Shown in pieces: positions 150 to 22,510 of a DNA stretch of 22,510 nt (position 1 is the first letter of the stretch; each line of letters starts with the position of its first letter). The position numbers were made by a program, and so were the translations under genes. Under the pieces are notes generated by a model. The model did not search any database. It was not told the origin of the DNA and saw only the letters and a list, made by a program, of their open reading frames with translations. The stretch is from a virus. Location: positions 1 to 22,510 of IMG/VR virus record IMGVR_UViG_3300020451_000667; one strand, 5' to 3'.

Positions 150-366
150 TTACTAACTCCTTTAATAGAGATTTGATCTCACTCATTTCACTTTTTAAAC
201 TTGCAAGATCACTTTCAACAGTTAAAGATTTTTCTTTTTCAAGTTTACGTTGCTTACGACGATTTATATATTGTTCATAAGCAGTTGTGTTAGTATTGAT
301 AATTTGATCAGTGTTTGGATCTCTGACCAAATCTGAGTTACCTTCAACTGGGATGTAGTTTGTCAT
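139..366 (-). CDS. Small conserved phage protein with C-terminal coiled coil
   Basis: This 75-residue protein has three visible parts. The N-terminal part (about residues 1-30) includes YIPVEGNSDLVRDPNT. A basic linker follows (about 35-46, NRRKQRKLEKEK). The C-terminal part is an amphipathic helix. Hydrophobic residues at V50, L54, L57, M61, I64, L68 and L71 follow an exact 4-3 heptad spacing, so a parallel oligomeric coiled coil is likely. There is no signal peptide or membrane segment. I recall similar short proteins with the IPVEG...LVRD start beside structural genes in T4-like cyanophages, where they are usually left as hypothetical. Its ATG overlaps the stop of the DUF4815 gene by one base (TAATG, 364-368), and no Shine-Dalgarno sequence is evident, so translation probably depends on termination-reinitiation. 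It may be a small connector or assembly factor for its larger neighbours. That role is inferred from context only. Confidence 0.85.
   Translation of the reverse strand: MTNYIPVEGNSDLVRDPNTDQIINTNTTAYEQYINRRKQRKLEKEKSLTVESDLASLKSEMSEIKSLLKELVNGN
157..163 (-). promoter_or_regulatory. Strong ribosome binding site for the leftmost gene
   Basis: The minus strand reads AAAGGAG, then 7 nt, then ATG at 149-147. The element lies inside the last codons of the 75-residue gene (its LLKEL segment), so ribosomes finishing that gene pass directly over it. It is the only clear Shine-Dalgarno match among the gene starts visible here, and it fixes the start of the leftmost gene. Confidence 0.8.
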
Positions 367-368
367 TA
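364..368 (-). promoter_or_regulatory. TAATG stop-start overlap between DUF4815 gene and 75-residue gene
   Basis: The minus strand reads TAATG: the TAA of the long gene (368-366) shares its last A with the ATG of the short gene (366-364). With no evident Shine-Dalgarno sequence just upstream, termination-reinitiation is the likely way the short gene is translated, tying its output to that of its large neighbour. Confidence 0.75.
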
Positions 369-6300: not shown

Positions 6301-8096
6301 GAACTTTCACTAGTAATTGTGCATATTCCTGAATGACTTGATGATATACCTGCATTTCCAAAATCAATAATAGGTCTTTGTATTACATCTCCATTAAATG
6401 ATTTTGCAAAACCAACATTACCCAAATCAGGGCCGCCATAAATTGATTTTACATCTTGCATTCCATGAGATGTTACTGCAACAGCAACACGATTATTATC
6501 AATACCATTTACGATAAATGGTTCATTTTGAACAAACTTACCAGTTACATCATATACATTTAAAGATGTGCTATTACTAACAGCATTAACTAAGAATCCT
6601 GAAGCACCACTATACTTTCCTTTAATTTGAGTTGGTATTGTGAAGGTATCTGGTTGAGATAAAGTTATCTTGGAGAATAATTGAATATCGTAAAGTGATG
6701 CATCCCATTCATTTAATGCAGAGTTGGATGTTGAATATGAACCAGACTCTAATGCAAAATCATAAACTCTTGCAACACCAATCTCACCACCACCAGCAGT
6801 AGTTAAAGCACTACCTATTCTTTGATCTCTTAAACTCACAACGTAAGTATTTCCAATTCCAATCTGTGGCACACCTTGAACATTATTAAGCCTTACTGCG
6901 TTTCCTGTTTTATATGCAACACCTTGATTTTCTAATGTTTTTGAAGTTCTTGTTTTTGGGCAATCTATAAAAGTAGAACTTATAGTTTCTACTTCATATC
7001 CCTTGATAAACGCTTTACCAGGTGATACTTGATATACTGCAAGATCATCATTTGCTAATGTTCCACCTTGAGTGAATTGACCAGTTTGATATACTCCATT
7101 ATTACCTACATTATCATTTAAGGAATCTTTCAGAGCAATACCAAAACTTTTAACCATATAATCACCAGATTCAGCATATGTTCTACGAGCTAATTCATCT
7201 CTAATAAGACCGTAATTTGTATTTTTAATTTGAGATCTTAAAATACCATTATCAATAACTGCTAATTCGACAAAATTAGAATCATTAAAATCATCTAATG
7301 GTTTAGCAAATAAACTTACAGATATTCTTAAACGATCAGCACCAGGTGCAGCGTAATTATTAAAACCTTTTGAATTGTCTGCTAATGTTTCATCTTCATC
7401 AGCATTTATTATATCTTCATCTATTCTTAATCCGATTCTAGCACTAGGAGTATTTGTGTATTGTGATAAAACAATTGTTTCATCTTGAACCTGAACAAAG
7501 TTACCTCTTATAAAATATACACCATTTGATATTGAAAAAGATGCAGCAGTTGATGTTGCATTATTTTGAATACATGAAGCAAACGATTCACCTGTTGGTA
7601 TAAAAGCGTTATTTTCAGGGCCTGAAACAATATCACTATCTGCCAATAACAGTTCACCATCAGCAAAAACTTTAATACTACTATCTTCGACTCCAGAAGA
7701 CATATATGAAATATAAAGTGTTAAATTACCATTCTCACTGTTCTCAGACTTGAGAATCTGTTTAATTATAGCTGTTACACCTGTTGTTGCACCAATTATC
7801 TTCCTATCAATTAACTGATCAATATAAAATTCTACAGGAACTCCTAAATGACTATTATTTAACTCTACAGCAAAATACTCAGGAGAATATGCAGTATTAC
7901 CTGGTATTACTTTTGCACCTTCTTTAAAGAAGTGTTGGCCAAATTTTTCAATTTGATTCTGTAATATAGACTGGAGACCTGTTAATTCTCTTGCTTGTAC
8001 AGGATAACCAGGCTTGAAAAGAATCTTTTGATAATTATCATTCGCATCGAAATCATCAAAATATGGTGAAACGTTAAGGTTGGTTTGTTGAGCCAT
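366..8096 (-). CDS. Giant DUF4815-type virion structural protein
   Basis: This 2576-residue protein starts at the ATG at 8096-8094, 6 nt after the gp8 stop. The N-terminal region (roughly residues 10-570) has the features I associate with DUF4815, including SPYFDDFD, KILFKPGYPVQARELTGLQS and an Ile/Gln/Phe-rich helix. A helix near residue 1135 (RMSDIKELEDRIKNLEYYT, about 4640-4715) looks like a short coiled coil. A recognisable domain begins at YDPLAQSFQV near residue 1719 and runs to about 1880, with PVTIQIR, EYAICLAS and QPYLGSLFKSQNAS on the way. Near residues 2174-2201 is GLLQIGDEVIKYTG, shared with the giant upstream protein. The last 150 residues (YIEDSRVNSLFDDPNACQYV through EAFPGYTNLND to YVPRVSDLRVITLA) form a compact C-terminal domain. 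No signal peptide or transmembrane segment is seen. By position, after gp8 and where T4 has genes 9 to 11, it is probably a baseplate-periphery or fibre-attachment protein. The structural role is well supported; the exact role is not. No strong Shine-Dalgarno sequence precedes the start. Confidence 0.93.
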   Translation of the reverse strand: MAQQTNLNVSPYFDDFDANDNYQKILFKPGYPVQARELTGLQSILQNQIEKFGQHFFKEGAKVIPGNTAYSPEYFAVELNNSHLGVPVEFYIDQLIDRKIIGATTGVTAIIKQILKSENSENGNLTLYISYMSSGVEDSSIKVFADGELLLADSDIVSGPENNAFIPTGESFASCIQNNATSTAASFSISNGVYFIRGNFVQVQDETIVLSQYTNTPSARIGLRIDEDIINADEDETLADNSKGFNNYAAPGADRLRISVSLFAKPLDDFNDSNFVELAVIDNGILRSQIKNTNYGLIRDELARRTYAESGDYMVKSFGIALKDSLNDNVGNNGVYQTGQFTQGGTLANDDLAVYQVSPGKAFIKGYEVETISSTFIDCPKTRTSKTLENQGVAYKTGNAVRLNNVQGVPQIGIGNTYVVSLRDQRIGSALTTAGGGEIGVARVYDFALESGSYSTSNSALNEWDASLYDIQLFSKITLSQPDTFTIPTQIKGKYSGASGFLVNAVSNSTSLNVYDVTGKFVQNEPFIVNGIDNNRVAVAVTSHGMQDVKSIYGGPDLGNVGFAKSFNGDVIQRPIIDFGNAGISSSHSGICTITSESSLFPGGLKVNNILSFGGLDNSVPTFARITAVGTNDVTIQGVQAVTGVVSNEVPATRTQVSSLKLQSSPLERSVDNRLYSLLPKAFISDVDLSSSTITIRKQFTVDIALNSNTGLGQFSSALAAGTNETFLPFDEERYVVMRPDGTTVALNDDMFRFSSGNTVLQIVGLGAAVGGATLIATLQKSKPTSKLKKLNRVNSIVVDKSKETGSGIGGTTLNNGLTFGNFPIGTRVEDEKIILNEADIIRIHGIYESTDTSEATAPKMTLTSLNGPSGKTTDLIVGEKVMGQNSGAVAAVSEIVTDSQITYIVKNETAFEEGEIIQFEESTVQGLITTLDNTSKNISANYTFTNGQRSTFYDYGFITRKSNAKAPKKQLKIYFTNGYYDSTDDGDITTRNSYNSWDYSKDIPMINGEYVTDTLDIRPKVDTYTVAEGVRSPLEFFGRTFTSSGSSAKNILASDESINLTFSHFVGRVDRIFLDKTGRFQVKYGDPSEKMERPTGVDDAIEVASVKLPPFLFQPRQASIDFLKYKRYRMSDIKELEDRIKNLEYYTSLSMLETKTSSLFIPDADGLNKFKSGFFVDNFTSLQPQETNGLKVKCSLDTKKNELRPQHYCTSIDLMPGPVEGVDVTADRAFLAAEGTNILKQSDVVTLNYTEVEWLSQQFATRTESVTPFLVSFWLSTIKLNPSTDTWTDTARLDAKIIQQEGNFAGVMAQAMQEFGVDMQTGLAPIQWNSWETDWVGTEQVDRKDQYTETSTTTVEEIIKAGWINGGRSVNHSVFHDTNTTTTFEDTIRDTFSVDNQSRNGTRKIVTEQFDNESLGDRIVSRDVITNMRSRNVEFRVTKCKPLTQLYGFFDNIAVTKYCTPKLTEITMTNGTFQVGETVVGTMPGSGIPAEGTDIPAIRFRVAQANHRSGPYNAPTEVFAKNPYVSQVGATGLETFLGTPGTVQLASTNDGSTNMPTTYSATSTIINLDTKALADQPQGDFYGYTTTGMELRGETSGATATISAKRLISDLGANLIGSFYIPNPNSGNHPKFETGTKTFTVIDNETLDKENTDTYGEDTYTASGTLETVQENIVSTRNAIIQTKPTKEERAVKTLTGSTVMKTEAISTDTSTSSQDVWYDPLAQSFQVTEEGGLFITSCDVYFQTKDDMDIPVTIQIRTMEGGTPTQKVLPFSEIILTPDQINTSTNGTVATRFNFEAPVYLEGDNTEYAICLASWSTKYKVFISRVGESDLLTDEFISQQPYLGSLFKSQNASTWEPSQWEDLKFVINKAVFETSGTLEIYNPILSIGNKQIARLQPNSINLNSKKIRVGIGTSLADTVIKSGTTVNQLSFNDGDTTYAAASNAFGDFIGSAGIGTGSMAIVNAGLGFTPTSGSQLYTGIAMTNITAGGDFLTADILVTDGGISSARIVNSGTGFQRGDVLGIGTITASNGDVLPGRNARMSIVSIGNTNELILDNVQGDFALNGILTYSNPLTGDFSGVTTSLNTTVGSSNTNARITRAIKITEVSDGRHFTVDHRNHGMHHETNRVTISGVEPDVIPTKLSLPYGATSTSTISVVSTNDFATYENVSVGATNPGLLQIGDEVIKYTGASSGSITGITRGNNAKGYIKGTPVRKYELGGVSLGRINRTHKLNEITDRDPNPITFDSYTVKIDTSALTSAETGLAFGVPDRESASSATSNPKLYINDTKSSGGYDAYATQNIPFQIISPNIGNVTVPGTTLSATLKTVSASSLGNGLGQGADLPFLDKGTETITLNKTNYLNSPRMIASRINETNNSAIQALNGDRSFNMTLTLETSNPNISPVVDLQRMSAILVSNRVDAPISNYIEDSRVNSLFDDPNACQYVSRENSLANSASSIKILLDAHINEFSDIRAYYAISVTPNFDPIFEAFPGYTNLNDLGQVIDASKSDGRPDRLIPKTDVGGFTSRDVTFKEYEFNMEDLPPFKYYRIKFVLTSTNQTYVPRVSDLRVITLA

Positions 8097-8102
8097 AGTT
8101 AA

Positions 8103-9683
8103 TTAGAACTGTAATATTATTTTGATGTCTTCTTTTTGGTTGGAAGATCTTGTGATAGATGGTCTGTGATCAACATAAATCATATTTCCAGAATATTTGT
8201 CAACTTCTGGATTAGAAACTCCCTTAGTAAATGATTGACCAAGGTAATAGGTTCTATTATTTAGAGTAGTAGAAAGGCCTGAAAATACAGTGCTAATCGA
8301 TAAATTAGAACTACCACCAATAATAGTCACACTTCCACCTGAAGATGGTTCAGATGTAAATCTAGTGGTATTATAACTTGGAACATTTAAATCTAAGTGA
8401 GATGGTGTTAGTGCTGTGCTAATACCACTTGATCCTGCAGTAGCAAAACCTGCGATTGTTCTATCTTGCCAATATTTCAAAACACCAGTTGTCTGGTCGT
8501 AAGAAATAACTCTTCCAACAGCTGTTGATCCAGTGGCAACAGTTTGTCTTACATAATCATCTGCAGTAAATGTTACAGAACTGTATCCAGTTCCTGCCAA
8601 TCTTAGTGCATATGCAGCACTAGCTTTATCTAATGTAAGTATTTCATTAGAATTGAATGCTTTAGGGTTCTCTAAAATACCTATTCTAGCAACTTGGTTT
8701 CCAGTTATGAAATCTGGGTTTTCAGCATCATTCTCAATTCTTGCATACAATAAAGCATTAGTTGCACCCAATTCTCTATAGATATCAGAACCATGACCAC
8801 CAGGTGGAGGAATAATTACATCAAGAGTTGGTTGTGAAGTTGGTGTTGGAACAGATCCAGCAGATAAATCAACATTACCATAAGTGTATCCAAATCCTTC
8901 GTTTGATACAGTAACACTTTCTATTTGAGCATCATTATTAACAACAACAGTGCATTCTGCATTGAATCCATCACCTTTAATTGGAACTCTAGTATAAGTT
9001 TGGTTAGCAGTTCCTATACCAGTTCCTCTATTTTTAACAACAACAATTTTTATTCCACCATCTGTAGCGTTATTCTTAACAGCAGCGTCTGAAGCATCGT
9101 TTCCCCAATCTGCTGGAACTGGCATGAAGTCAGTAGAATCAAATTTGATTAAATCCGCAGGTTTAATACTATACAAATACTTCCATATATAACCGTCTCC
9201 AGAAGTACCAGGTGTTCTTGGTTCTAAATCTGTAAAGGTTGGTTCATCAAGTGATGGTTTTCCATCAGGTGTTTCTGGTGTTGTTCCGTTCTGTAAACAA
9301 ATATAAACTCTAAAATCACTGTTAACAACAAAGAAGTTTGCAGTATACAAAGATGTTCCACCAGAGTTTGGAGGTGCATTAGAAATACTGTAATCGTGTC
9401 TATAGTAATCATATGTTGTTCCAGAGTTCCAGTTCAATTTTGGAACAATTTGTTTTACATCAGTGGATGTCACCCTTTTCACAGCAAGCATGGTATCGTG
9501 ATAATCATTCATATTATCAAAATTATCAACTGGTGCTGGAGGATTTGAATCCCAATCACTTTGATACGCGGTTGGGTTGGGTAAACCAACAAATGCATAA
9601 TAAGAGTTAGTCGAAGTGGATACACCAGCAACGAAATTCTTTGCGTTTAATATTCTTATTTGATCAGTTATGATAGCCGCCAT
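8103..9683 (-). CDS. 8: Baseplate wedge protein gp8 (T4-like), enlarged
   Basis: This 526-residue protein is a homologue of T4 gp8, a structural subunit of the baseplate wedge. The recognised order of motifs is as follows. Near residues 67-95 are MLAVKRVTSTDVKQIVPKLN and a WNSGT/YDYY segment. Near residue 164 is DGYIWKYLYSIKP followed by FMPVPADWG. Near 330 is IGILENPKAF. At the C-terminus are SGNMIYVDHRP and EDIKIILQF. From memory, T4 gp8 has DGYVWEYLFEI at the equivalent place and ends SGEMIYMENRP...EINILFTF. T4 gp8 is 334 residues, so about 190 extra residues are present. They fall mainly between PADWG and GILENP (with a GFGYTYG repeat near 8880-8930) and between NPKAF and SGNMIY. The ATG at 9683-9681 is preceded by a 28-bp AT-rich gap with a late-promoter match but no clear Shine-Dalgarno sequence. 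The preceding gene being gp7-like supports the call. Confidence 0.92.
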   Translation of the reverse strand: MAAIITDQIRILNAKNFVAGVSTSTNSYYAFVGLPNPTAYQSDWDSNPPAPVDNFDNMNDYHDTMLAVKRVTSTDVKQIVPKLNWNSGTTYDYYRHDYSISNAPPNSGGTSLYTANFFVVNSDFRVYICLQNGTTPETPDGKPSLDEPTFTDLEPRTPGTSGDGYIWKYLYSIKPADLIKFDSTDFMPVPADWGNDASDAAVKNNATDGGIKIVVVKNRGTGIGTANQTYTRVPIKGDGFNAECTVVVNNDAQIESVTVSNEGFGYTYGNVDLSAGSVPTPTSQPTLDVIIPPPGGHGSDIYRELGATNALLYARIENDAENPDFITGNQVARIGILENPKAFNSNEILTLDKASAAYALRLAGTGYSSVTFTADDYVRQTVATGSTAVGRVISYDQTTGVLKYWQDRTIAGFATAGSSGISTALTPSHLDLNVPSYNTTRFTSEPSSGGSVTIIGGSSNLSISTVFSGLSTTLNNRTYYLGQSFTKGVSNPEVDKYSGNMIYVDHRPSITRSSNQKEDIKIILQF

Positions 9684-9704: not shown

Positions 9705-9716
9705 TATTTATTTAGA
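9705..9716 (-). promoter_or_regulatory. Candidate T4-type late promoter (-10 element) for gene 8
   Basis: On the minus strand the region reads TCTAAATAAATA. It holds AATAAATA (9712 to 9705), which fits the NATAAATA late-promoter consensus of T4-like phages, and an overlapping TCTAAATA (9716 to 9709) that matches TATAAATA at seven of eight bases. It spans the stop codon of the giant gene and ends 21 nt upstream of the gene 8 ATG, leaving room for a short leader. A T4 late promoter needs only this element, so no -35 box is expected. In AT-rich DNA a chance match is possible. Confidence 0.5.
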
Positions 9717-12700
9717 CGACATAGTTCTCAGATTTAAGAGCCGCCTTTCTCTTAATCTGTGGCCCAGTCTTAATACCAGTAACACCATTGGTAGTATTAA
9801 CAGTATATGCTTGTGCTAATTGTCTATCATTTAGTTGTAATCGACCCCAACTAAAGTCACCGATGAATGATGTAGATAGACCTTGATTTAATGTTGAATA
9901 ACCAACAGTATTTTGTAATCCATGCCAATCTAGAACTTTACAGAATACTCTTGTTGCCTCTTCTGTTGTACTTTGACCGAATGATACAGTTGTTACTCCA
10001 ACATGATGTGATACCTCGTATATGTTATCTAGGGCAGTGGTTCCTACACCAACATATCCAATAGAACTAGTCATAGAAACTGCGGTGACACCAGATCCAA
10101 GGTTAGAATTGCTAACAGTGAAATAGTAACCAGTTTGTATACCACTTCTTGTTATCGCGTTAGGGCTATTAATATTACTATCCCTTAAAGGAGAATCTTT
10201 TGGAATGAATAAATCAAATACGAGTGCAGTTCCAACACCAATTGCCACACCGTTTATTCTAGAAATGTTTGAGCATATACCAACTCCAGTAATAACACCA
10301 AAGTCACCCTCATATAGATCAATACTATTCTCCTCCCTAACATATGTAGGTGGAGCGATTAAAACTTGTGGAGGTGCAGCAGAAGTATAACCAGTTCCAA
10401 CAATTCCTGAATTAATACCAACTGTAATAGATGATATAGATCCATTAGTAACAGTTGCAGTTGCAATCGCTGTTGCAGTGGTTCCAATACCTACAAATGG
10501 AGTTCCACCAATGCTTATAGGTTGCTGTATTCTAACTTCAGGAACCGATGTATAACCATCACCACCGTCTGTAATTGAGAAGAATGATACTGTGTTAGCG
10601 ATAGATACGATTGCAGTCGCAGCTGCACCAGCAAGAAACTCATATTCAGAACTTGCATTAACTATTTGAATTTCTTTTTGGAAACCCCTGTCTGAGGGAT
10701 TCTCATTCTCAGGGTTAAAGAATGGTTTACAACTATCAATGAATATTTCTGTTTGACCCACACCAATAGGTTGAATTAAATATGCGGTTGGGAATAACTT
10801 AGGTTCGTATAGTGGTCTATCTTTACGAACAATTTTTCCATCAATAAATCTATCCTCTAATTGTCTATACCATTTAACAGGTCTTGTTTCAGTATCACTA
10901 TCACCTAGACCTCTTCCATAATATTGATTAGTTACAACTGTATCAGATGATTTTATTTCATGAACTGCTCTAGGGAACTCAATGAAAGTTCTTGTGTTGT
11001 AAGTTGGATTGTATCCTAATTGTAAATCATCACCAACTTTTACAGTTTCAATAATATCTCTGTCAACAACGTCAGCACCACCAGTTCCTCTATAGAAGAA
11101 CATTCTCATTACATCAGTTGCATTTGGTGCTTCTGTGAATGTTATTGTTCCACCACCATTAAACTCATAACCTTCACCTGGCACTTGTAAAACATCATTT
11201 ATTGTTAAAATAATGGTATTCTGCACAACTATGTTTGAACCAGTTCTTGCTTGTATAGCAAATGCCTCACCAGCTACTGTGAGTGGGAATGATTTTCTAG
11301 TTCCATTGAATAGATTTGAGAAATCATCAAGAGCTTGGAGTTCACCCATTGTCCACATATTGAATTCATCATAGTGAACTTTCTGAATTGTTATCTGGAA
11401 AGGTTTAAATGGTTTGCTTGGATCATCAACTGGTATCGCATATGCACTTACAGGTTTATCTGTTGATGTTCCAACTGGTGCAGATCTAAATGTAGGAACA
11501 GTTAAAGTATGACCAATACCATAACCATATCCTGTATTTGTAATTTCAAAATCAATTACACTGCCAATTCCCGTAGTACCAACTCCAACCGTAATATTTG
11601 CTCTTGCCTGTGATCCACCACCACCAACTGGATTAAAATGAGTATTTTCATACCAAAGAGGAATATCTTGATATGGTAATGGTTTGTCAATTATAGCAGT
11701 AAATGTTGAAGCACCATATCCTACATTAGTTCCAGCTAATATTGGATTATTAGTTCCTATGCCAGGTATTGAACCAGTATTTGTAACAGCAATACTTACA
11801 ATTCTACCATTATGAACAGCAGCAGTTCCAATGTTATAAAGAACTGGAACTCCAGTAGTAGATGTAGCAACAGCAACATTAACGACAGTTGCTATTCCAA
11901 CACCAGTGATTGATGTTGTTCCCATACCCACTGGGCCTGGGAGTATTCTATAACCAGAACCACTATTACCAATACTAACTGTTTTAACTTTACCTGCATT
12001 ATCAAAATCAATAGTAGCACCAGCACTAACTAGAGCTTGATATCCAAACCCTTCACTTGATCCGACTGATATAATAATTCCACCAACAGGAACAGATGCA
12101 GTGTTAACATCACTAGCAACAGATGCTTTAGATCCTGTAAATGTTATAGATGTAATTCCAGAAACTTCAGATAGAGTATAATCATTCAGATCTCCAGCAC
12201 CCTGTAGTATACCATTTATCATCACAATACCAAGGTTTGTAGCAATACCAGTTATATTTTGCTTATCTGATTTCAAAGTGAATACTTCTTTTTGACCTGT
12301 AAATTCTTGAGATATATCATCAATTGAATAGTTTCTAGAGTAAGCATCAATGTTTCCTCCAGCAAGACCAGATCTATTAAATATTCTTCCACTGAAACTT
12401 GATGTGGTTGTAATACCAGTAAAGTCTCTATCCATTGATGGAAGGCCAGTGCTTCCGACACCTATGGGTCTACCACCTTTTGGTGCTTCAATAAAGTTAA
12501 CAGTGCTATCAACAATATTATAATTACCAGACATCTTCTCAATAAGATCTTTATTATTATGATCTAGAAGTTTTGTTCCCATCCATTGCCTATGAACTCT
12601 TATAGCGTTAGCAACTCCAGCATGATTAACAGATATAACCTTCATCATCTCACTTCCAGTTGTGTCAACACCAACTTTAATTACATCACCAGCAAAGAAT

Positions 12701-15700
12701 GAAGTTATACCAGAAGTTGACATTATTATTTCACTCTTTGCAAAGTCAGCAGTAAGAGATGATGTAACTCCAGTACCCACGATAGGGCTTTGAATAATGT
12801 TATCAATTGCTATCAACGCTCTTGTATTTTGGTTTTTACTTATCAAACTATGTGAAGATCCTATACCAACAGCAGTAAAATCTAATGGAACTGCGATTGA
12901 TTTAAGTGCGTTTTCTGCGGATGCTGCAAGTTTAACTAAACTATCACTAACTTTAATAATGAAAGCTTTATCGGGGATATATGAAACTGTTACAATTCCA
13001 GTTGGAATCACAAAGGTACTAGCAGCAATTCCTATTGAATCTGTAGTCGCTCCAACACCTGTGGTTGTGCATCCTACTATAGGCTGTTTTATAGAATATT
13101 CGACTTCTTCACCAGTTACAAAGAAATGGTTAGGAATACTAATAGTATTGTTGGTTAAATTAACTATGTCAGTGCTAGATCCATCAAAGTCTTTCTTAAA
13201 TACTTGATTAGTTTCATTTAATATTGGGAAACCAGTTTTAGATCCAAAGAAAGTTCCTTCATAGACATCAAACTTAGTTTGAATAGATCCAGATTGTAAT
13301 TCAATTTTATTAGTATTATTATCTTCATGAACTTTAAGAGCATGAATAAATGTTTTAACTTCTACAGCTGTATTTGCATTTGGAACATATGATATTTCTG
13401 TAAAGCAATCTGATCCATCTCTTCTTCCACCAATAGTTCCTATACCAGTTGCATTTGCATTAACACTCGCTCCAGTTATGATATTTCCATACTCTGTCAT
13501 GAATACACGAGTATCATCGTCAATCATCATGATTTCTGAGAACTCATATCTATCATTTGTGGTATCCTTGACTTGAACTAATGCATATGCAGCATCAAAC
13601 TCTTCACTATAACTACCAACACCTACAGGGAACGGTGCAGATCTTGATGGAATTGTGGATGATTGAGCAATTAATGCTCCATTTTTTAATGGTAACGTTC
13701 CTAATCCAACACGAGTTTCAGATGATATTCCTATGGTAATCGAGTTGATATATGCAGTTGCAATACCAGCTCTCGGTGTAAATCCAACTTTAATTTGAGC
13801 AGTGCTTCCAAGACCAACAATATGTGGTCTAAATGTTCCTAATGGTTCTGCAGCAAGAGAATCTCTCCTATTATGAATTGTTAGTTGACCATACTGCTCA
13901 AATGCTACAGTAGATCCTAAACCTACAGGATTTTGATGCATGATCATGCTCAATTCATTATATTCAACAGTTCCTTCACTTGTTGCCACAGAGACAATCA
14001 TTTTAGCAGATCTAGGATTATACAATTCATCGCTTCTAGCTGTTCCTAATCCTGTGTTAAATACTCCACCATCCGTAGATGAGGTTCCCACAGTGGCTAT
14101 GATAACCTCAACCTCATCACCAGCATGAGAAGATCCAGCCAATGTTGTTGCAGCACCAATATGAACAAGTGCTGTGGTTCCTATGCCAGGATTAGAACGA
14201 TTTACTATAGAAGTTGATAAACCTACAATTTGTGTTGTTCCACTTCCAACAAGTTCATTAAGGTTGTATGAAAGTGTTGTTACATTATAGTTGTTAAACT
14301 CACTCTTATTTGGGAAGAAATTAAGAACTGCTTCAGTTCCATCAACAGTGGAATCCATAGATCCAAGATCTCTTACAGTATCTACTTGACCATACTGGTT
14401 AATCATTGATTGACCACTAACAGGATCAAACAAAGCGTTAACCATCATTAATTGTCTTTCACCTTCAAATAAACTATCCTTCACATACACCATAAATCTA
14501 TTTTCTTTATTACCAGCAATTGCAAATCTACCTACCTCAGAGAATGCTGTTGTTCTTGGTAAATCATTAAATTGATCGCTAATATTGTCAATAGTAATAA
14601 CTCTATTTCCTACAGACTCAGCATAGTCAATTAAGATGCGGTTTTGGAAAGTGATTTCATCAGATAGATTACCAGAAGCAGGAGATCTTGATTTTAAATT
14701 TTCTGTAGCTAAATCAAAGTTATCAACTTCATGTAAACTCTCAAATCCTTGTAAATCAATAACACCAGTTACTGTTCCAGCAGTTCCAACGACCAATGAT
14801 GCCTTTTGAGCAACGGGTAAAGTTGATTCCAATTGAAGATTACTAAACTTTTGGAATCCTGCAGTATGAGTTAGAGTATTAACTATATCTTTCCATTTTT
14901 CCATGAATACTCTAGACTTAATCGCATATGCAAATCTTTGATAGTATTCATTATCATGAGTTACCTGTAACACATTGCTTAAGAAACCTGTCTCATATTC
15001 CCACCCATTATTAACCATTGAGAAATAATCAACTAAGAAATTAGTATCAAAAGTAAGAATTATATCAGATACTGTTCCTTTAGCACCCGTAACTGTAGAT
15101 TCTATTAATTTACCAACTTCAAAATCACTAGCTGCCTCTATAGTCAACCATTGACTTGCTGGATCATACTCTGCAACTACACCAGAAACTGGGCCAACAC
15201 TAGTTTCAGATGTTAATGTTTCTTTTGTATTAAATGTGTTTGGTTGTAATTCAGGAGAGAATTGTGGAAAATCTCTTTCTCTTACTAATATCGCTGACGA
15301 TATAGTGGTATCAAAAGTACCAGGTATTTCACCACTTGCAACTAAACCAGCCATACTGTAGGTTACTATACCAACGTTACCTAAATTCTGATGAACTTGT
15401 GTGACTTCAAAGGTTCTAAAATCATATTGATCAGAATTATATCCTTTTCCTGTAGATCCAACTCCAACACTAGCATTTTCAACTAAAAGTTTATCACCCA
15501 CTTCTATAGGAAATTCTGGTGCAAGACTATAAGCAACTTTTAATGTTGCAGCAACAGTTTCTGTGGATGAATCATAAACAAGATTTGTAACTCTAATACC
15601 ATTAGGATTATTAACAGGAACAATAATAGGAGATACGTTAGATAAACCATAAGTATTTTCAATAATATCAACATAACCAGGTGTATCAGGAGTTGTTAAA

Positions 15701-18700
15701 TTATAGACTAAATCAACATCATTATCTTTTTGTCTAGTAAGACCATCAAGAACAACTAATGTTGGTGGGTGATTATAACCTTTACCATACGATGTAATTC
15801 CAACACGTTTTAAACCAGATAGTGCTGAAATTTTAATAATTTGTGGAAGTTTTGATTGAGGTCTTAATGTAAAGTCTGATGGATAATCAAAACCAATGTT
15901 GTCAATTTTTGTAGTCTGAGGAACACCTATTGATGTGCTAGATGCTTCTAAAATAGCACCTGTTCCTGTGTCAGAGGTTACAGTGGATACACCAGGTAAT
16001 CTAGTATATCCTTTTCCTTTTTCAGACAATGAAACTGCTGCTATTGGGCCATAAGCAGTTTTAGATGTAGTATTATAACTTAAAATAGTTGTGCTTGAAC
16101 TTGTATATGATTCTTCTTCAGGAAATCTATCTAAATCATATGTAAATGTATTTGTCGAGTTTGCAAGAATATTAAACTGACCTGCATAACGACTATCTTT
16201 AAATAATATTGAATTGTTTCCTATAATTTCTCTGTCTAAAACAAGTTCTTTGTTTATGTCAGGATTATCAGAAGATGTATTTGCAACTAAGTTGTAATAA
16301 AGTATTCTTGGAGTATTTTGATTATATGTTAATGTTAGTTTTCCATCTATACCAACCGTTCCACTTCTACTTACATTGAATGTTGATGACTGTTCATTTG
16401 ATGTGTATTCGTGAATAAAATTGTAGTCTGTATAAAGTTCTAAATCAAACGCAGGTAGCGTATCTGTAATTTTAATGTATGATAAAGATGAATCTGACAA
16501 GTCAAATACTACAGTTCCATTTTTATAAAACTCCAATGGTGGATTAACTAAATTAAATACTCCACCAGTACCAGCACTACCCACTGTGACAAATTTGGGT
16601 CTACTTTGTTTTGTTTGGAATCTATTAGCACATAATTTAATTTTATCTTTATCAACAACATATACAAAATACTCTTCATCATTAGTTAAACCAGCAATTT
16701 CTGTATTTGCTGTAAGAATAACTCTTTGGCCAGTGGTCATCTCATGACCTGCTATTTCAATTGAGCCAGGATCATTAATTATAGATCCTGAAGTAGTAAT
16801 ACCAGATGCAGTAAAATCTAAAGTTCTTGCAATTAATTTTCTATTTGCTTTATTATATTTGACAGGAACTGTTGTAGTGATACCAGCATTTACAGATAAA
16901 AATACTTTATCATTATGACCTAAACCATGACTACTAGCAGTTGATACGGTGATTAAATTTTTCTCTATCGATCCTGTTACTGTGTCATTATATTTTCTTC
17001 TAAAACTATGATATGTGCCAGTTCCGATACCTGTAAAGTATACTAAACTTTGTTGTTTAATAGTATGCCCAACACCAGTAAATACATCCTCTGGATCTAT
17101 ACCACCACCAGTGGTTCCTACACCAATTCTAACAGTTGATAAACCAATTAAATCATCAGATAATTTAGCTACAAATAGTGGCATAAATTCTGTGTTATGA
17201 TTTGCACCAAGATTAACTAAATTATTACCTGATGCAAATAAATTAGCTCTAGCACGGTTAGTTGCAATGCCTATAGGATTACCACTGTTTCTATGATATG
17301 TTACCTGATCTCCAGTTTTAAATTTATGATTTGGTAAGAATATGGATCTTGTTGGTAGGAATATTGAACTTCTTCCACCAGCAGGATTACTAATTGTAGC
17401 TGTTGTTCCTATTCCAGGCCCAGCAGTTGTTCCAACACCTACAGATTCTACAGGATTAAAGTAGTATTCAAAATTAACTTCATTATCAAATGTAGTAGTA
17501 AAACCAACATCAATCTTAAATTTTCTAGGATCTTCCTCTATCGCTGTTCCTATTGCATGAGTTGCTCCAACACCAGTGCTATCATCTAAACCATTTTGAT
17601 TTCTCAATACTCTTATTCTAGAGTTAGCAGAATCTATATTTAATAATTTAACTGTTTCTAATTGAGTTCCAATTCCAACTTTTAAAATATCATTCTCTCT
17701 TAAATTGAGACTATTGAGATTTGAATTTGGAGAAGGTAATTTACCTTGAACACTAAAGAATGTAACTAATCCAGTAACAGAAACTTTTGGTATATCCTCA
17801 GATAATAATAGTTTTGATGATGTTATTCCAATACTATAAGTTTTTTGGCCAAGTCTAGAACTAGTAGTTGACATTCCAGACACAAAAACTTTATCACCAT
17901 TTTGTAAATTTAATGGATCAGTGTGAACACCAACAAATCTTCCTCTTTCATCAGCAGGATAAAATTCAACATTTTGCAATTTTGTATTAGTAACTGAAAT
18001 AGTTCCAATACCAGGCCCTGTTACTCTAGATACTTTTCCAACTGTTTCAAAGTTTTCAGCAACTTTTTCTTCAAATACGAGTTTATCGCCAACCTGATAT
18101 GAAGAACCTCCAGTTACAATACCAATTTTTTCTACAGATCCTTCGGAAGCATAAACAATAGAACCTTCTTGGGTAACATACTTATATGATTGACTTACAT
18201 AATCATAAGAACTATCATCTTGAAGTAATTCATATGGTTCAGTATTTCTTACCCAACCAGTTTCATTAAGATTAATTTCATCTTGATTGCTCTTAGATAA
18301 GAAATTAAATTCATTTGGTTGACCATTAAAGTTTTCACCAATCAAATATGGAAATTTTGGTTTTTTAAAGTTATTGAACGGATCACTAGAATCTGATGTT
18401 ACTGTTGATTCAAGAGTAGCAAAATAAGCATATGTTCCATTTGGATATTCAGGAGTTACACCGTATCTTCCGTTGTTTTCATCAAGATAAGTTTCATCAG
18501 TGTTACTATCCCATGTAAAGTCTTCTATAAAGAACTCTTGTGGGAAAATGCTAGTAGGAGGTCTATTAGTTTTTAGATCAACAGAATAACCAGAATTAAG
18601 TTGAACCACCGATCCACCAGTGCTCTTTTCGTATGCATATGGGCCATATATTGGAAGACCATCATATGACCAACCAATAATTGGTGAGTGTTGTGTTCTG

Positions 18701-21700
18701 TTTTGTTCTACACCACTTGATAGAGATAGATCTCTAGTTCCAACTAATGGATCTCCATCTGAATTGTTTTGATATAAAACCTTTCTTAAACCTCTTGGCA
18801 CATATGCATGTGAACATTGTAGCTCACGACTAAGTTGTGTTGGTTTTTCTATGAATACATCAGAACTATCGATATTTGTAAAGTTCTTCTTAACCTCGTT
18901 TACTTGCCATGTTTTTAAATTAACATTGAAAATAGCAAATTCACCAGCAGATATAACATTAAGTGATGTGGTAGATGCACCATATCCAACACCAGCCTTA
19001 ATTATTTTGATAGATCTTATTTCACCGTCAACTAATTCTGGAACTAATTCTGCACCAGTTCCAATACCTGTAACTGAAATACTGGGTGGTGTATTATAAG
19101 ATTGACCTCTGTTTTGAATCGCGACATCAATAATTTGGCCATTAGCAACAACGGGTAATAATTCACCACTTATTCCACTGTATAAGTCAATTCTAGGTTG
19201 TCTATTAAAGTTAAGTATTTCAGATGCACCGTATCCAACACCACCATTTGTCAAATGAACAGATGTAACCTCACCCCTAAACAGTGGTTGAGGAACACAT
19301 TGGAAAGTATTCCCCTCTATTGAACTTATACCAACAATACCCTCAACCTTTACTATAATTGGATCATAATTAAAACTATGAGTTCCTACTCCAATTGAGT
19401 TTAAACGTTGATATTGTTTTGTTTTAAAATAAAAATCTTTTGCAGTTGTTCCAACACCCACATTCGATAACTTAAATGTGTTTTCATCTATAACAGAGAC
19501 ATAATATTTTTTATCGCTTGAAAGACCTTCGATAGCAGTTCCACCAGAATCGGGAGTATAAGCTACAATCTCACCTGTCTTATAATCATGGTTACTGATG
19601 GTGATTCTATCAAGTGCTGTATTAATTCCAGTTGGTTCACATGTTTTAAGTTTATTTTCATATCCATCTCCAGATTCCAATACATTAATATTACCAACTT
19701 GTAATTTACCTTTGAAAGACCTGAACTGATGATTTCCTTCACCAGCAGCAGTGAAAGCTATGGTATTAATACCAATAACCGCTTCATCTAAGTTTCTATG
19801 AAGTCTAATTGTTTTTTGTGGATACCAAGTGTTTCCAGCATATCCTACCCATGTATCAATTTCTGTCATACCAGTAGGAGTAGAGGTATTAACATAATAC
19901 ACTGCACCAGTGCTTAATCCTGCTAATGCCTTTTCCCCAAATGTATCGTATATAACTTGCTCATGATTTCTAAATTTATGATAAGTTAAAAATCCTACGT
20001 TAAAATCATCAGATCCCTTTACAACTATAGTTTGAGATCCTGAACCAGAATTAAACACCACCTGGTGGGGAACTGTAACCATTTTACACTCAGCAACAGC
20101 ACCACTTCCATTTCCTCCACTTATTGATACTTTAGGAATATCAAGATAATCAAAACCTGGATCTTCAATTAGTATTTCTTGTAAACTACCTCTGGTTGCA
20201 ACATATCCAGTAGCACCTGCTCCCACACCATCATTAATTGCTAACTGAGGTGGATTTATAACATCATACTTTCTACCACCACCAGTTACGTCAATTGACT
20301 TAATATCACCATAATAACAAAGGTCTTGAGACTTGTAACTTAATACTTCAACACCGTTAATTAAAATACCATTATATCCAATTCTTGTTTTATATTTTTT
20401 GCCATCATAAACTGGCATGTCAATTTCTCTAAACAGTTTTTGTGGTTGAATTATTTTTCTATGAAATTCATACTTTTCAAAAGTGTTATTTGTGATTGTT
20501 GTAGTAACAGTGGTTTCAGATATCTTTTGATAATTACCGTTATATAAGTTTGATCTAGATTTTGCTAACTTTATGTTGTTCTTATCTACACGTTCTACAA
20601 AGTATAATCCTTCACTAAAAAGAAAACTTGTTATACCACCATCATCATCTTTTTGTGGTGTGTAGTAAATGGCATCACCACTAAAGAAGTTATGATCATT
20701 ATCACCACTTGTAATCGCAATAGTTGTATCACCACCATTAAAAGTTCCAGATAATGTAATTTTCTGGGTGCTTGGATTTAACTTATGATCAGATCCATAT
20801 GTTGGTAGAGAGTTAGATGCAATTAAGTTCTTAAGTTTAGAAAGAGTGTGAGCATACCCCACTTCTTCCATGTAAATATTTTGAATATTAGCGGTAAAAT
20901 TATTTAAATGCTGTTGATTATTATCTACGCTACTTCCATCAGAATTAGGTTTTGAAAGAAGTTTTCTTATTGAAAGAACTGCAGTAAGATCACTTATTGC
21001 AGATCCCTGCATTCTAATTTTATTCGGTTGAGATCCAGCTTCATCTGATAAAACATCAGTGACAACATAACTCCCAGTTAAATCTCCAGTTGATGTTTGA
21101 ACTGATATTGTGTCATTTATTCTTATTCTATGAAAATCTTTTGTAGTTACTTCGTAAGTTGGGCCTGAAGCATCTTGTAGTGTAATAGTATCTACATTAT
21201 ACTTTGGTTGAATATTAAATAACCAGTTGTTTGACTGAAAATCAGTTACTTTTGCTATCTTACCTAAAGATTTTAATTTTACTTTTGCACCTGTTCTTTG
21301 ATAGAAAGTATTAGGAAGTTCTATACCACCCAATACACCTGTTATTCTGCATCGTATGCCGTCTGTAGTGACCCCTGCGGTGCTGTTTGCTTGACCCAAG
21401 GCATATACATAGGTATTTTGTCTAATTGGTGTAGCATCCTTAATAGTGGTGGTAATGCCAGTTGTGCTTATACCCAAAAACTGAGTTACGTTTGTGTTAG
21501 AGTATGTGCAGACTCCTGTAGTTCCATTTTGATATTTAAATGTTAAAGTTCCATTATCAGGAAAGCCTATAGTTGAATCAACGTCAATAAAAGTCTGTGC
21601 TGCTCCAACTGCACCAACATTTCTTGAATTAGCATGAACAGCGAAATTACCATAAAGCAACTCGTCAGAACTACCTGTTCCAAATGAAGCATCAATACTA

Positions 21701-22510
21701 ACTTTGTAATAGGTTTCAGTTAAAAGACCAACTCTAACCCTTTCGACCATTGATACAGGGCCATATGCTCTAGATAAGTTTTCAAATGGTTCTTGAAATA
21801 GTGTTTTATTTTCAAGATCCATTGGATCACCTTGAATTGCCTCAACTATAATGTCACGAGTTTTTCTGTAATTAGCATCTGACGGTGCAATTACATAATC
21901 GGCAGGTCTGACAATATCTACTTCTTCGTTATATAATGATTTAAATAGTAATTTAAATGACTCGTCAGTTCCTCTAGAGTTATAAAAATCTTTTGAGTGA
22001 CGAATAAATTGTGGTTGATTTAATGCAGGGGATAAATCTTTTTGAAAACCAGGTAAAAATTGTTTTTTAGACTTCTTTAAAAATTCTTCTAAAAATAAAT
22101 TACTTAAATTATGAACCTGACCACCACTTGTTCCAACACCAACTGCATGAGTTCCTGCGTTGGATGATGAAAATACAAATTCCTCTGGTTCATCAGGATT
22201 ACTAAAAGAAGTAATACCACTAAATCCACGAATACATCCAGTAAATGAATTTGTTGTCAATCCAGTATATGTAATTATTTCATCATCTATTTTCAGTAAA
22301 CCATAATTATCTGGAAATCCTGTTGTATCCTTTACAGATATAGTTTGATCAAATTGGCCAACAGCACCTGAGAGGGTCGTAAAACCGACTAGAGTGCCTG
22401 ATTTATTTAATTGTATGTAAGAGTCTAGATTATTGATTATATCAATCGGGCCACCTTGATATTCTTGCCCTTGATAGTATGCACTTAAAAATTCACCGAC
22501 TAAAGGGCTA
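9712..22510 (-). CDS. Giant gp7-like baseplate wedge protein, N-terminus beyond window
   Basis: The frame is open without a stop from 9714 to the right edge: 4265 codons plus one base. The TTG at 22260 is not a convincing start, because the 83 codons upstream continue in frame and read as structured protein (FLSAYYQGQEYQ, GFPDNYGLLKIDDEIITYTG). No ATG occurs among them. A segment at 21910-22008 (FIRHSKDFYNSRGTDESF ... LYNEEVDIV) resembles, from memory, the DFYSTKG...LYNEEVEI stretch near the C-terminus of T4 gp7. A second segment at about 14836-14950 (AIKSRVFMEKWKDIVNTL, then HTAGFQKF) resembles a later gp7 part with KSN...RW...HPVGF. Between them, about 2,300 residues hold a YHYH-like domain (18390-18720), a possible cupredoxin-like segment (16280-16550) and H-x-F-x-T-G-D repeats. 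After them come a three-copy module (13375-14520) and GxGY motifs up to the C-terminus. Its place directly before gene 8 matches T4 gene 7, the wedge initiator (1032 residues). It is certainly a structural gene; the gp7 assignment is probable. Confidence 0.9.
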   Translation of the reverse strand, partial: SPLVGEFLSAYYQGQEYQGGPIDIINNLDSYIQLNKSGTLVGFTTLSGAVGQFDQTISVKDTTGFPDNYGLLKIDDEIITYTGLTTNSFTGCIRGFSGITSFSNPDEPEEFVFSSSNAGTHAVGVGTSGGQVHNLSNLFLEEFLKKSKKQFLPGFQKDLSPALNQPQFIRHSKDFYNSRGTDESFKLLFKSLYNEEVDIVRPADYVIAPSDANYRKTRDIIVEAIQGDPMDLENKTLFQEPFENLSRAYGPVSMVERVRVGLLTETYYKVSIDASFGTGSSDELLYGNFAVHANSRNVGAVGAAQTFIDVDSTIGFPDNGTLTFKYQNGTTGVCTYSNTNVTQFLGISTTGITTTIKDATPIRQNTYVYALGQANSTAGVTTDGIRCRITGVLGGIELPNTFYQRTGAKVKLKSLGKIAKVTDFQSNNWLFNIQPKYNVDTITLQDASGPTYEVTTKDFHRIRINDTISVQTSTGDLTGSYVVTDVLSDEAGSQPNKIRMQGSAISDLTAVLSIRKLLSKPNSDGSSVDNNQQHLNNFTANIQNIYMEEVGYAHTLSKLKNLIASNSLPTYGSDHKLNPSTQKITLSGTFNGGDTTIAITSGDNDHNFFSGDAIYYTPQKDDDGGITSFLFSEGLYFVERVDKNNIKLAKSRSNLYNGNYQKISETTVTTTITNNTFEKYEFHRKIIQPQKLFREIDMPVYDGKKYKTRIGYNGILINGVEVLSYKSQDLCYYGDIKSIDVTGGGRKYDVINPPQLAINDGVGAGATGYVATRGSLQEILIEDPGFDYLDIPKVSISGGNGSGAVAECKMVTVPHQVVFNSGSGSQTIVVKGSDDFNVGFLTYHKFRNHEQVIYDTFGEKALAGLSTGAVYYVNTSTPTGMTEIDTWVGYAGNTWYPQKTIRLHRNLDEAVIGINTIAFTAAGEGNHQFRSFKGKLQVGNINVLESGDGYENKLKTCEPTGINTALDRITISNHDYKTGEIVAYTPDSGGTAIEGLSSDKKYYVSVIDENTFKLSNVGVGTTAKDFYFKTKQYQRLNSIGVGTHSFNYDPIIVKVEGIVGISSIEGNTFQCVPQPLFRGEVTSVHLTNGGVGYGASEILNFNRQPRIDLYSGISGELLPVVANGQIIDVAIQNRGQSYNTPPSISVTGIGTGAELVPELVDGEIRSIKIIKAGVGYGASTTSLNVISAGEFAIFNVNLKTWQVNEVKKNFTNIDSSDVFIEKPTQLSRELQCSHAYVPRGLRKVLYQNNSDGDPLVGTRDLSLSSGVEQNRTQHSPIIGWSYDGLPIYGPYAYEKSTGGSVVQLNSGYSVDLKTNRPPTSIFPQEFFIEDFTWDSNTDETYLDENNGRYGVTPEYPNGTYAYFATLESTVTSDSSDPFNNFKKPKFPYLIGENFNGQPNEFNFLSKSNQDEINLNETGWVRNTEPYELLQDDSSYDYVSQSYKYVTQEGSIVYASEGSVEKIGIVTGGSSYQVGDKLVFEEKVAENFETVGKVSRVTGPGIGTISVTNTKLQNVEFYPADERGRFVGVHTDPLNLQNGDKVFVSGMSTTSSRLGQKTYSIGITSSKLLLSEDIPKVSVTGLVTFFSVQGKLPSPNSNLNSLNLRENDILKVGIGTQLETVKLLNIDSANSRIRVLRNQNGLDDSTGVGATHAIGTAIEEDPRKFKIDVGFTTTFDNEVNFEYYFNPVESVGVGTTAGPGIGTTATISNPAGGRSSIFLPTRSIFLPNHKFKTGDQVTYHRNSGNPIGIATNRARANLFASGNNLVNLGANHNTEFMPLFVAKLSDDLIGLSTVRIGVGTTGGGIDPEDVFTGVGHTIKQQSLVYFTGIGTGTYHSFRRKYNDTVTGSIEKNLITVSTASSHGLGHNDKVFLSVNAGITTTVPVKYNKANRKLIARTLDFTASGITTSGSIINDPGSIEIAGHEMTTGQRVILTANTEIAGLTNDEEYFVYVVDKDKIKLCANRFQTKQSRPKFVTVGSAGTGGVFNLVNPPLEFYKNGTVVFDLSDSSLSYIKITDTLPAFDLELYTDYNFIHEYTSNEQSSTFNVSRSGTVGIDGKLTLTYNQNTPRILYYNLVANTSSDNPDINKELVLDREIIGNNSILFKDSRYAGQFNILANSTNTFTYDLDRFPEEESYTSSSTTILSYNTTSKTAYGPIAAVSLSEKGKGYTRLPGVSTVTSDTGTGAILEASSTSIGVPQTTKIDNIGFDYPSDFTLRPQSKLPQIIKISALSGLKRVGITSYGKGYNHPPTLVVLDGLTRQKDNDVDLVYNLTTPDTPGYVDIIENTYGLSNVSPIIVPVNNPNGIRVTNLVYDSSTETVAATLKVAYSLAPEFPIEVGDKLLVENASVGVGSTGKGYNSDQYDFRTFEVTQVHQNLGNVGIVTYSMAGLVASGEIPGTFDTTISSAILVRERDFPQFSPELQPNTFNTKETLTSETSVGPVSGVVAEYDPASQWLTIEAASDFEVGKLIESTVTGAKGTVSDIILTFDTNFLVDYFSMVNNGWEYETGFLSNVLQVTHDNEYYQRFAYAIKSRVFMEKWKDIVNTLTHTAGFQKFSNLQLESTLPVAQKASLVVGTAGTVTGVIDLQGFESLHEVDNFDLATENLKSRSPASGNLSDEITFQNRILIDYAESVGNRVITIDNISDQFNDLPRTTAFSEVGRFAIAGNKENRFMVYVKDSLFEGERQLMMVNALFDPVSGQSMINQYGQVDTVRDLGSMDSTVDGTEAVLNFFPNKSEFNNYNVTTLSYNLNELVGSGTTQIVGLSTSIVNRSNPGIGTTALVHIGAATTLAGSSHAGDEVEVIIATVGTSSTDGGVFNTGLGTARSDELYNPRSAKMIVSVATSEGTVEYNELSMIMHQNPVGLGSTVAFEQYGQLTIHNRRDSLAAEPLGTFRPHIVGLGSTAQIKVGFTPRAGIATAYINSITIGISSETRVGLGTLPLKNGALIAQSSTIPSRSAPFPVGVGSYSEEFDAAYALVQVKDTTNDRYEFSEIMMIDDDTRVFMTEYGNIITGASVNANATGIGTIGGRRDGSDCFTEISYVPNANTAVEVKTFIHALKVHEDNNTNKIELQSGSIQTKFDVYEGTFFGSKTGFPILNETNQVFKKDFDGSSTDIVNLTNNTISIPNHFFVTGEEVEYSIKQPIVGCTTTGVGATTDSIGIAASTFVIPTGIVTVSYIPDKAFIIKVSDSLVKLAASAENALKSIAVPLDFTAVGIGSSHSLISKNQNTRALIAIDNIIQSPIVGTGVTSSLTADFAKSEIIMSTSGITSFFAGDVIKVGVDTTGSEMMKVISVNHAGVANAIRVHRQWMGTKLLDHNNKDLIEKMSGNYNIVDSTVNFIEAPKGGRPIGVGSTGLPSMDRDFTGITTTSSFSGRIFNRSGLAGGNIDAYSRNYSIDDISQEFTGQKEVFTLKSDKQNITGIATNLGIVMINGILQGAGDLNDYTLSEVSGITSITFTGSKASVASDVNTASVPVGGIIISVGSSEGFGYQALVSAGATIDFDNAGKVKTVSIGNSGSGYRILPGPVGMGTTSITGVGIATVVNVAVATSTTGVPVLYNIGTAAVHNGRIVSIAVTNTGSIPGIGTNNPILAGTNVGYGASTFTAIIDKPLPYQDIPLWYENTHFNPVGGGGSQARANITVGVGTTGIGSVIDFEITNTGYGYGIGHTLTVPTFRSAPVGTSTDKPVSAYAIPVDDPSKPFKPFQITIQKVHYDEFNMWTMGELQALDDFSNLFNGTRKSFPLTVAGEAFAIQARTGSNIVVQNTIILTINDVLQVPGEGYEFNGGGTITFTEAPNATDVMRMFFYRGTGGADVVDRDIIETVKVGDDLQLGYNPTYNTRTFIEFPRAVHEIKSSDTVVTNQYYGRGLGDSDTETRPVKWYRQLEDRFIDGKIVRKDRPLYEPKLFPTAYLIQPIGVGQTEIFIDSCKPFFNPENENPSDRGFQKEIQIVNASSEYEFLAGAAATAIVSIANTVSFFSITDGGDGYTSVPEVRIQQPISIGGTPFVGIGTTATAIATATVTNGSISSITVGINSGIVGTGYTSAAPPQVLIAPPTYVREENSIDLYEGDFGVITGVGICSNISRINGVAIGVGTALVFDLFIPKDSPLRDSNINSPNAITRSGIQTGYYFTVSNSNLGSGVTAVSMTSSIGYVGVGTTALDNIYEVSHHVGVTTVSFGQSTTEEATRVFCKVLDWHGLQNTVGYSTLNQGLSTSFIGDFSWGRLQLNDRQLAQAYTVNTTNGVTGIKTGPQIKRKAALKSENYVV
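13375..14520 (-). repeat. Three diverged copies of a 70-80-residue module
   Basis: Three segments of the giant protein share one layout: a strand with VYVKD / VSVATSEG / VQVKDTT, then a hydrophobic strand (ERQLMMVNAL / YNELSMIMHQN / FSEIMMIDDD), then a Tyr-Gly turn (NQYGQV / EQYGQL / TEYGNI), then a closing strand (AVLNFFPNK / AQIKVGFTP / TEISYVPNA). The approximate positions are 14308-14520, 13772-14012 and 13375-13597. They are spaced about 508 and 415 nt apart. Residue identity is low but the order of landmarks is the same, as expected of an old tandem duplication of a beta-sandwich unit. Confidence 0.65.
18390..18720 (-). other. YHYH-like domain inside the giant protein
   Basis: The minus strand encodes GWSYDGLPIYGPYAY (18631-18675) and, about 50 residues later, LDENNGR followed by TPEYPNGTYAYF (18421-18486). 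These are the spaced landmarks of the YHYH protein family (GWxYDGxPIYGPYGY; LDECNGxxxxTPEYPxGTYHYH). The family's name motif is replaced by YAYF (18421-18432), and the usual Cys of LDEC is Asn. The histidines that might bind a ligand or metal are therefore missing, so a purely structural role is likely. The family's function is not established. Confidence 0.75.

Follow-up and report, generated by a model that had tools for sequence, protein, structure and literature searches.

A T4 gp7-like baseplate wedge core divided by a giant insertion in a metagenomic contig related to cyanophages

In both phage T4 and the T6SS, gp7 (TssG) joins two chains of gp6 (TssF) in a helical core bundle and a trifurcation (PMC6300606, PMC10457771). 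In T4 gp7 (PDB 5IV5, 5HX2), the core corresponds to residues ~727-889 and the extra mass of the protein, ~640 residues, lies before it, while T6SS TssG and P2 gpI are small adaptors, which fill the same role in a 2:1 heterotrimer and, according to the literature, share a distant common fold with gp7 (PMC6300606). The orthologue from Vibrio phage XM1 (gp17) is only 242 residues long, and its flexible internal loop and C-terminus each hold six tail spikes (PMC10457771). Short homologues, with the whole core in one chain downstream of gp6, are also encoded by Shigella phage Ag3 (284 aa, PF23786 Baseplate_wedge) and Desulfovibrio phage 7757, and, like XM1 gp17, they lack the N-terminal ~640 residues of T4. 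For cyanophages, one comparison lists gp7, like gp10 and gp12, as a gene of the T4 group that does not belong to the cyanophage core (PMC3037559), and a 2020 paper described gp7 as absent from cyano- and pelagimyophages, with VrlC substituting for it (PMC7029224). The gp7 name is nevertheless already in GenBank, where proteins of S-SM2 and others are called 'gp7: baseplate wedge initiator' and that of S-CRM01 'gp7-like'.

We analysed a 22.5-kb linear metagenomic virus contig (22,510 nucleotides, hereafter the window), whose large genes all lie on the minus strand. Its largest reading frame matches PHROG 2885 'baseplate wedge subunit' (phrog_2885; E=0, 3,157 bits, best stretch residues 2-3572), and its best named relative is the full-length 'baseplate wedge initiator' of Synechococcus phage SynMITS9220M01 (SynMITS9220M01_083, 4,067 aa). 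The features discussed below are as follows, with residues numbered along the giant protein.

22363..22509, minus strand: first part of the gp7 N-terminal core (residues 1-49); residues 1-265 align by hhalign with the short gp7 family at probability 99.4
22174..22374, minus strand: module M1 in the N-terminal core (residues 46-112); module HMM E=6e-31
21715..22110, minus strand: gp7 core half A (residues 134-265), motif DFYxxxGTxxSxxxLFxxLYxE; hhalign to short gp7s, probability 99.4, E=4.8e-22, and to T4 gp7, probability 97, E~1e-10
15280..21714, minus strand: main insertion (residues ~266-2410, ~2,145 aa), between halves that abut in T4 and short gp7s
16603..20700, minus strand: five M3 modules in the insertion (residues 604-661, 841-899, 968-1040, 1722-1798 and 1916-1969); E 4.9e-28 to 4.6e-12
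15943..20298, minus strand: five M2 (GxGY) modules in the insertion (residues 738-810, 1083-1156, 1150-1198, 1440-1488 and 2119-2189); E 1.8e-25 to 9e-7
18394..18705, minus strand: YHYH-like domain (residues 1269-1372); PF14240 E=2.9e-20, 73.5 bits versus a cut-off of 25
14797..15279, minus strand: gp7 core half B (residues 2411-2571), motif DxxYYQxFSYxIxS..W..HxAGFxxF; hhalign to short gp7s, probability 99.0, E=3.9e-18, and to T4 gp7, probability 34-56, E 1e-4 to 4e-4, in the position anticipated
9715..14796, minus strand: C-terminal extension (residues 2572-4265, 1,694 aa) with beta modules M2, M3 and M5
9712..22509, minus strand: giant gp7 homologue holding all of the above, 4,265 aa and a stop codon, running off the contig at its 5' end
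8103..9683, minus strand: gp8 homologue, 526 aa; PF09215 E=1.1e-10, phrog_438 E=5.6e-165
366..8096, minus strand: DUF4815 / VrlC-type large structural protein, 2,576 aa; PF16075 E=4.1e-56, phrog_358 E=0

Judged by the offset to a 98%-identical IMG/VR relative, the N-terminus of the window gp7 is missing ~24 residues, and gene 6 would lie beyond the end of the window. Gene 8, which an earlier note on this DNA had placed next to the giant gene, indeed follows it directly (PF09215, phrog_438), and gp6 lies upstream of the giant gene both in the IMG/VR relatives (up to 98% identity) and in SynMITS9220M01, where the order is gp25, gp6, 'baseplate wedge initiator', gp8, structural protein. Thus, the gene order 6-7-8 of T4 is recovered by way of the relatives. 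In nearly all loci compared, gp6 precedes the gp7-type gene, and in many short-gp7 loci gp8 comes after it. The next gene after gene 8 in the window encodes the DUF4815 protein, for which the VrlC name was taken from same-position genes in two other loci. Between gp7 and gp8, S-CRM01, P-TIM68, S-PM2 and Mosig carry one to three extra virion-type genes (tail-fibre-like, chaperone-like), while the window carries none.

The earlier note had pointed to two gp7-like segments far apart in the giant gene. Both were found in one open frame, SKDFYNSRG..LYNEEVDI at residues 172-199 (21913-21996, minus strand) and AIKSRVFMEKW..HTAGFQKF at residues 2529-2555 (14845-14925), with 2,329 residues (~7.0 kb) between them versus ~106 residues between the same motifs in T4 gp7. 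Single-sequence searches of Pfam, NCBIfam and the PDB gave too little signal by themselves, whether the query was the entire giant protein or one of its halves, and since the phmmer match of the giant protein to T4 gp7 was marginal (E=0.045, residues 168-200 only), profiles were used. With these, each segment matched gp7, the second via the short homologues. A cyanophage-only profile of the first segment, with T4 held out, found T4 gp7 at E=1.5e-5 (PDB-sized database, 177,635 sequences). The cyanophage profile of the second segment found the proteins of phiM12, pf16, S-PM2, 7757 and Mosig at E<=4e-9; it did not find T4 gp7 directly, and a broader profile gave 9.6 bits. Moreover, the short-homologue profile aligned with both halves of the T4 gp7 core (probability 98.2, E=2.7e-14), and when PDB sequences were searched with it, T4 gp7 came out on top (E=2.1e-10) with both halves in order.

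An unbiased sliding profile-profile scan, in which 53 overlapping 160-residue segments covered the whole giant protein, revealed that only residues 1-320 and 2401-2640 match the short gp7s (probability 98.7-99.0; 75.6 for the extreme N-terminal segment 1-160), the best value among segments elsewhere being 1.4. Against T4 gp7, the first region reached a probability of 97 and the second ranked next (56 and 34), with E ~1e-4 versus 0.019 for the following segment. Half B by itself matches T4 weakly when compared directly, and its identity rests on the short homologues. The Pfam model PF23786 (Baseplate_wedge) scored window residues 1-300 at 12.4 bits (E=0.1), below its cut-off of 27 bits, and the protein is not filed as a member; the same model is matched by all 32 short homologues at E<=0.01 and yields separated partial matches in S-PM2 and P-RSM4, those in P-RSM4 gp7 being three pieces in the right order. 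No counterpart of the ~640-residue N-terminal part of T4 gp7 was found, the core starting at the N-terminus of the window protein.

We modelled with AlphaFold2 a natural 298-residue short homologue that holds both halves (32 sequences), and obtained a model of modest confidence (pLDDT 64, pTM 0.35). In a Foldseek search, the top three PDB matches of this model were gp7 of T4 (in two states) and of Klebsiella phage KP1, with E-values of 1.5e-10, 1.9e-10 and 8e-6 over nearly all columns and a low global TM (0.24), and no other PDB entry matched below 0.06. Hence, the core is identified as gp7 by homology, synteny and the modest-confidence fold match of the short homologue, and our collective results support the window protein as a homologue of T4 gp7 whose two core pieces, contiguous in T4 and in the short homologues, are ~2,150 residues apart.

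The position of the cut was located by hhalign against a profile built from 31 short gp7s, whose gaps span about 75-170 residues; this placed residues 1-265 on columns 22-190 (probability 99.4) and residues 2411-2567 on columns 185-365 (99.0). Because these columns adjoin, the halves abut in a short protein and the inserted stretch corresponds to residues ~266-2410. In T4 gp7, too, the stretches matched by the A-side and B-side segments are adjacent (about 727-814 and 818-889) and come in the same order as in the window, with ~67-106 residues between the T4 halves, and the 53-segment scan detected no gp7-like segment within the main insertion. The split proposed in the earlier note is borne out, the insertion measuring ~2,145 residues, and to it must be added two parts that the note does not mention, a C-terminal extension of ~1,700 residues and an insert of ~85 residues in the N-terminal core (~50-133). 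The latter appears as a gap in the hhalign alignment, holds module M1 and follows a stretch (the start of the core) that is a helix-turn-helix region in short homologues. At the site of this M1 insert, P-RSM4 has ~500 residues. The whole P-RSM4 gp7 (14012-32219 and beyond) counts 6,603 residues, with a PF23786-like core in three pieces, insertions of ~500 and ~2,700 residues and, in the portion read, at least 17 M2 modules.

The stretch between the halves had been described as rich in repeats. A phmmer self-comparison of the three window proteins returned just two weak pairs, so that iterated family HMMs were needed to reveal the modules; these gave M1 (2 copies), M2 'GxGY' (7), M3 (6) and M5 (2); neither the 20 shuffles nor T4 gp7 yielded any hit. 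Besides the copies listed above, there are two weaker M2 copies in the C-terminal extension (residues 3630-3671 and 3961-3999) and a sixth M3 at residues 3122-3201 (window 12907-13146). Since M1 also occurs in the VrlC-type neighbour (once, at its residues 2152-2207) and M2 in gp8, the adjoining baseplate proteins have building blocks in common. The window gp8 has 526 residues versus 334 in T4, with M2-like sequence at its residues 162-269, and seems to be enlarged by the M2 family as well. Residues 580-1465 of the insert were predicted to be all-beta, with confidence over most of the first 630 residues and poor values in the YHYH region. Sequence and fold searches of the PDB with the insert gave nothing significant, and a search of viral structures returned mostly phage proteins, the best being cyanophage gp7. 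The C-terminal extension was not detected by segment HMMs in gp7 of S-PM2, S-CREM2 or S-CRM01, and shares one module with P-RSM4. We also considered that it had arisen by fusion of the extra genes that lie between gp7 and gp8 in S-CRM01, P-TIM68, S-PM2 or Mosig, and found no homology.

Given these data, the giant frame is probably gene 7 of a Kyanoviridae-type cyanophage, encoding a split wedge core with a covalent peripheral insert and C-terminal arms. Residues 1-265 and 2411-2571 would together form the gp7 wedge core and, by analogy with the T4, XM1 and T6SS structures, we infer that this core combines with two chains of gp6 in building the core bundle and the trifurcation of each wedge. 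The chain would leave the core, pass through ~2,145 residues of beta modules and the YHYH-like domain, and re-enter to complete it, while another ~1,700 residues, again rich in beta structure, would follow at the C-terminus. The added parts may be covalent peripheral arms, six copies per baseplate, from which the outer baseplate would be built and on which parts that bind the host would be docked or displayed; the earlier note had suggested that such an arm may reach the host surface or stiffen the rim. They might take the job of the T4 gp7 N-terminal part, gp10 and gp11, and the wedge core would relay any pull on an arm to gp25 and the sheath. Peripheral arms standing in place of the T4 gp7 N-terminal part and other rim proteins would be the most economical reading of the layout; the location at the rim, the docking of fibres and the transfer of force are presumed.

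A less probable alternative, which keeps a minor share of our confidence, is that the insert is mainly an enzymatic or receptor-binding tool, with a YHYH-like domain that cleaves the cell envelope or attaches to it, and beta modules that serve only as a stalk. The presence of this domain between the halves, noticed earlier, was confirmed, its PF14240 score exceeding the cut-off. Moreover, no other part of the insert is as well conserved as the block around it (window residues 1200-1600) in the distantly related gp7s of cyanophages S-PM2, P-RSM4 and S-CREM2. For YHYH, PMC7824862 predicts a hydrolase that is associated with the tail and depends on metal, with three histidines and one aspartate. 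However, the name-giving motif reads YAYF in the window and in 48 of 57 relatives (YAYY in 6 of 57), and hence the proposed metal site seems to be partly gone. This degenerate motif, as read from the sequence, weakens the hydrolase prediction of PMC7824862 for the giant-gp7 branch, and the domain, modelled with low confidence, makes up ~5% of the insert. The gp7 of P-TIM68 retains YAYH.

The preferred reading, a wedge core with covalent arms, is also supported by the distribution of the gap between the halves. Both halves occur in one open frame, with similar spacing, in about 40 other contigs and several isolate genomes. Outside the cyanophages, the gap is 0 in Ag3, 66-67 residues in KVP40-like XZ1 and in T4, ~77 in 7757, 213 in pf16, 234 in Variovorax V45v66 (Vx66), 341 in pelagiphage Mosig, 396 in Rhizobium AF3 and 778 in phiM12; neither Ag3 nor 7757 has the YHYH domain or the M modules. 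Environmental contigs fall at 75-87, 115-170, 236, 300-430 and 526-664 residues, and cyanophages at 1,060 (S-CRM01), 1,557 (S-PM2), 1,623 (S-CREM2), 2,129-2,294 (the family of the window) and 2,685 (P-RSM4). In a FastTree phylogeny of the two concatenated halves, every gap above 900 residues belongs to one 14-tip cyanophage clade (support 0.895), and gap length tracks the tree, the nearest-neighbour difference being 0.067 log units versus a permuted mean of 0.52 and minimum of 0.36 (2,000 permutations). This pattern suggests that the insertion expanded once in an ancestor within the cyanophage lineage and grew further afterwards, although we infer its polarity from a midpoint root. The giant cyanophage gp7s (PHROG 2885; SynMITS9220M01_083, S-SM2 gp7, Bellamy gp111) are about 4,100-4,300 residues long and split at the same position, and a relative with 46% identity over the N-terminal 700 residues differs in nothing essential. 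The window protein is another member of this group, and every giant cyanophage gp7 that we examined has the split, expanded architecture.

The exact abutment of the halves in short homologues is also what a removable element would give, and we therefore considered that the insert is taken out post-translationally, by proteolysis or by splicing of the intein type, so that the virion would contain a gp7 of T4 size. This seems very unlikely, as Pfam and PHROG profile searches of the window proteins found no intein or homing-endonuclease family, the modules of the insert recur in gp8 and the VrlC-type protein, and insert length follows the tree. Moreover, gp122 of S-CREM2 (1,937 residues), encoded between gp6 and gp8, was detected by mass spectrometry with 91 unique peptides and 27.2% coverage (PMC10665884), and we found that it has both gp7 halves, 1,623 residues apart. 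This coverage amounts to ~527 residues, of which only ~314 can lie outside the insert, so that by arithmetic on the published totals (rather than from a peptide map) at least ~213 detected residues belong to the insert. This implies that the insert is present in the virion of this relative, and coverage above what the non-insert part could supply argues against its splicing or loss.

Still more improbable is a coincidental likeness to gp7 of two unrelated pieces of a tail-fibre-like polyprotein: the weak direct match of half B to T4 would fit it, but the specificity of the sliding scan, the order and abutment of the halves in T4 and the short homologues, the conserved position between gp6 and gp8 and the Foldseek matches all speak against it. 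Least probable of all, a chimeric contig joining two genes, conceivable for a linear metagenomic contig, is refuted by the about 40 contigs and several isolates that have both halves in one gene at similar spacing.

The proposed arrangement of covalent arms around the split core resembles XM1 gp17 in having a conserved wedge core and two variable places, but those of XM1 are short and bind separate spike proteins, whereas in the window they are giant covalent parts; unlike in T4, the extra mass is internal and C-terminal. The XM1 loop (80-106) is part of domain I, and its counterpart may be the smaller, N-terminal site of insertion, not the main one. As a tentative extension, which we regard as rather doubtful, the gp7 core could be a general growth slot of contractile baseplates (internal loop and C-terminus), carrying receptor-binding parts non-covalently in simple phages like XM1 and as covalent thousand-residue arms in cyanophages, with the Kyanoviridae arms having taken the place of both the N-terminal part of T4 gp7 and the pins and short fibres (gp10-gp11-gp12). 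If this were true, the 'missing' cyanophage gp7 and rim proteins would sit in one giant split protein.

The gp7 core is present beside VrlC in cyano- and pelagiphages, Mosig included, which contradicts the absence reported in PMC7029224, and the cutting of the core in two by a giant insertion explains why gp7 was thought to be missing from cyanophages. Our search of the literature, covering sources outside subscription journals, found no description of the split core or of the length series. These findings correct the models of the baseplate in phages that are among the most abundant in the sea, name exact boundaries for structural work, and mark gp7 as a place where cyanophages may mount peripheral, possibly host-sensing, parts.

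Finally, several gp7 homologues proved to carry other labels or none. The minimal 284-aa homologue of Ag3 (5542-6396) is annotated 'head closure Hc2', and several gp7-homologue PHROGs (phrog_460, phrog_3465) are filed under head and packaging, which looks like a spreading misannotation. In Vibrio phage XZ1, a gp7 frame of 1,169 aa lies at about 3853-7359, in an unannotated GenBank gap after gp6.
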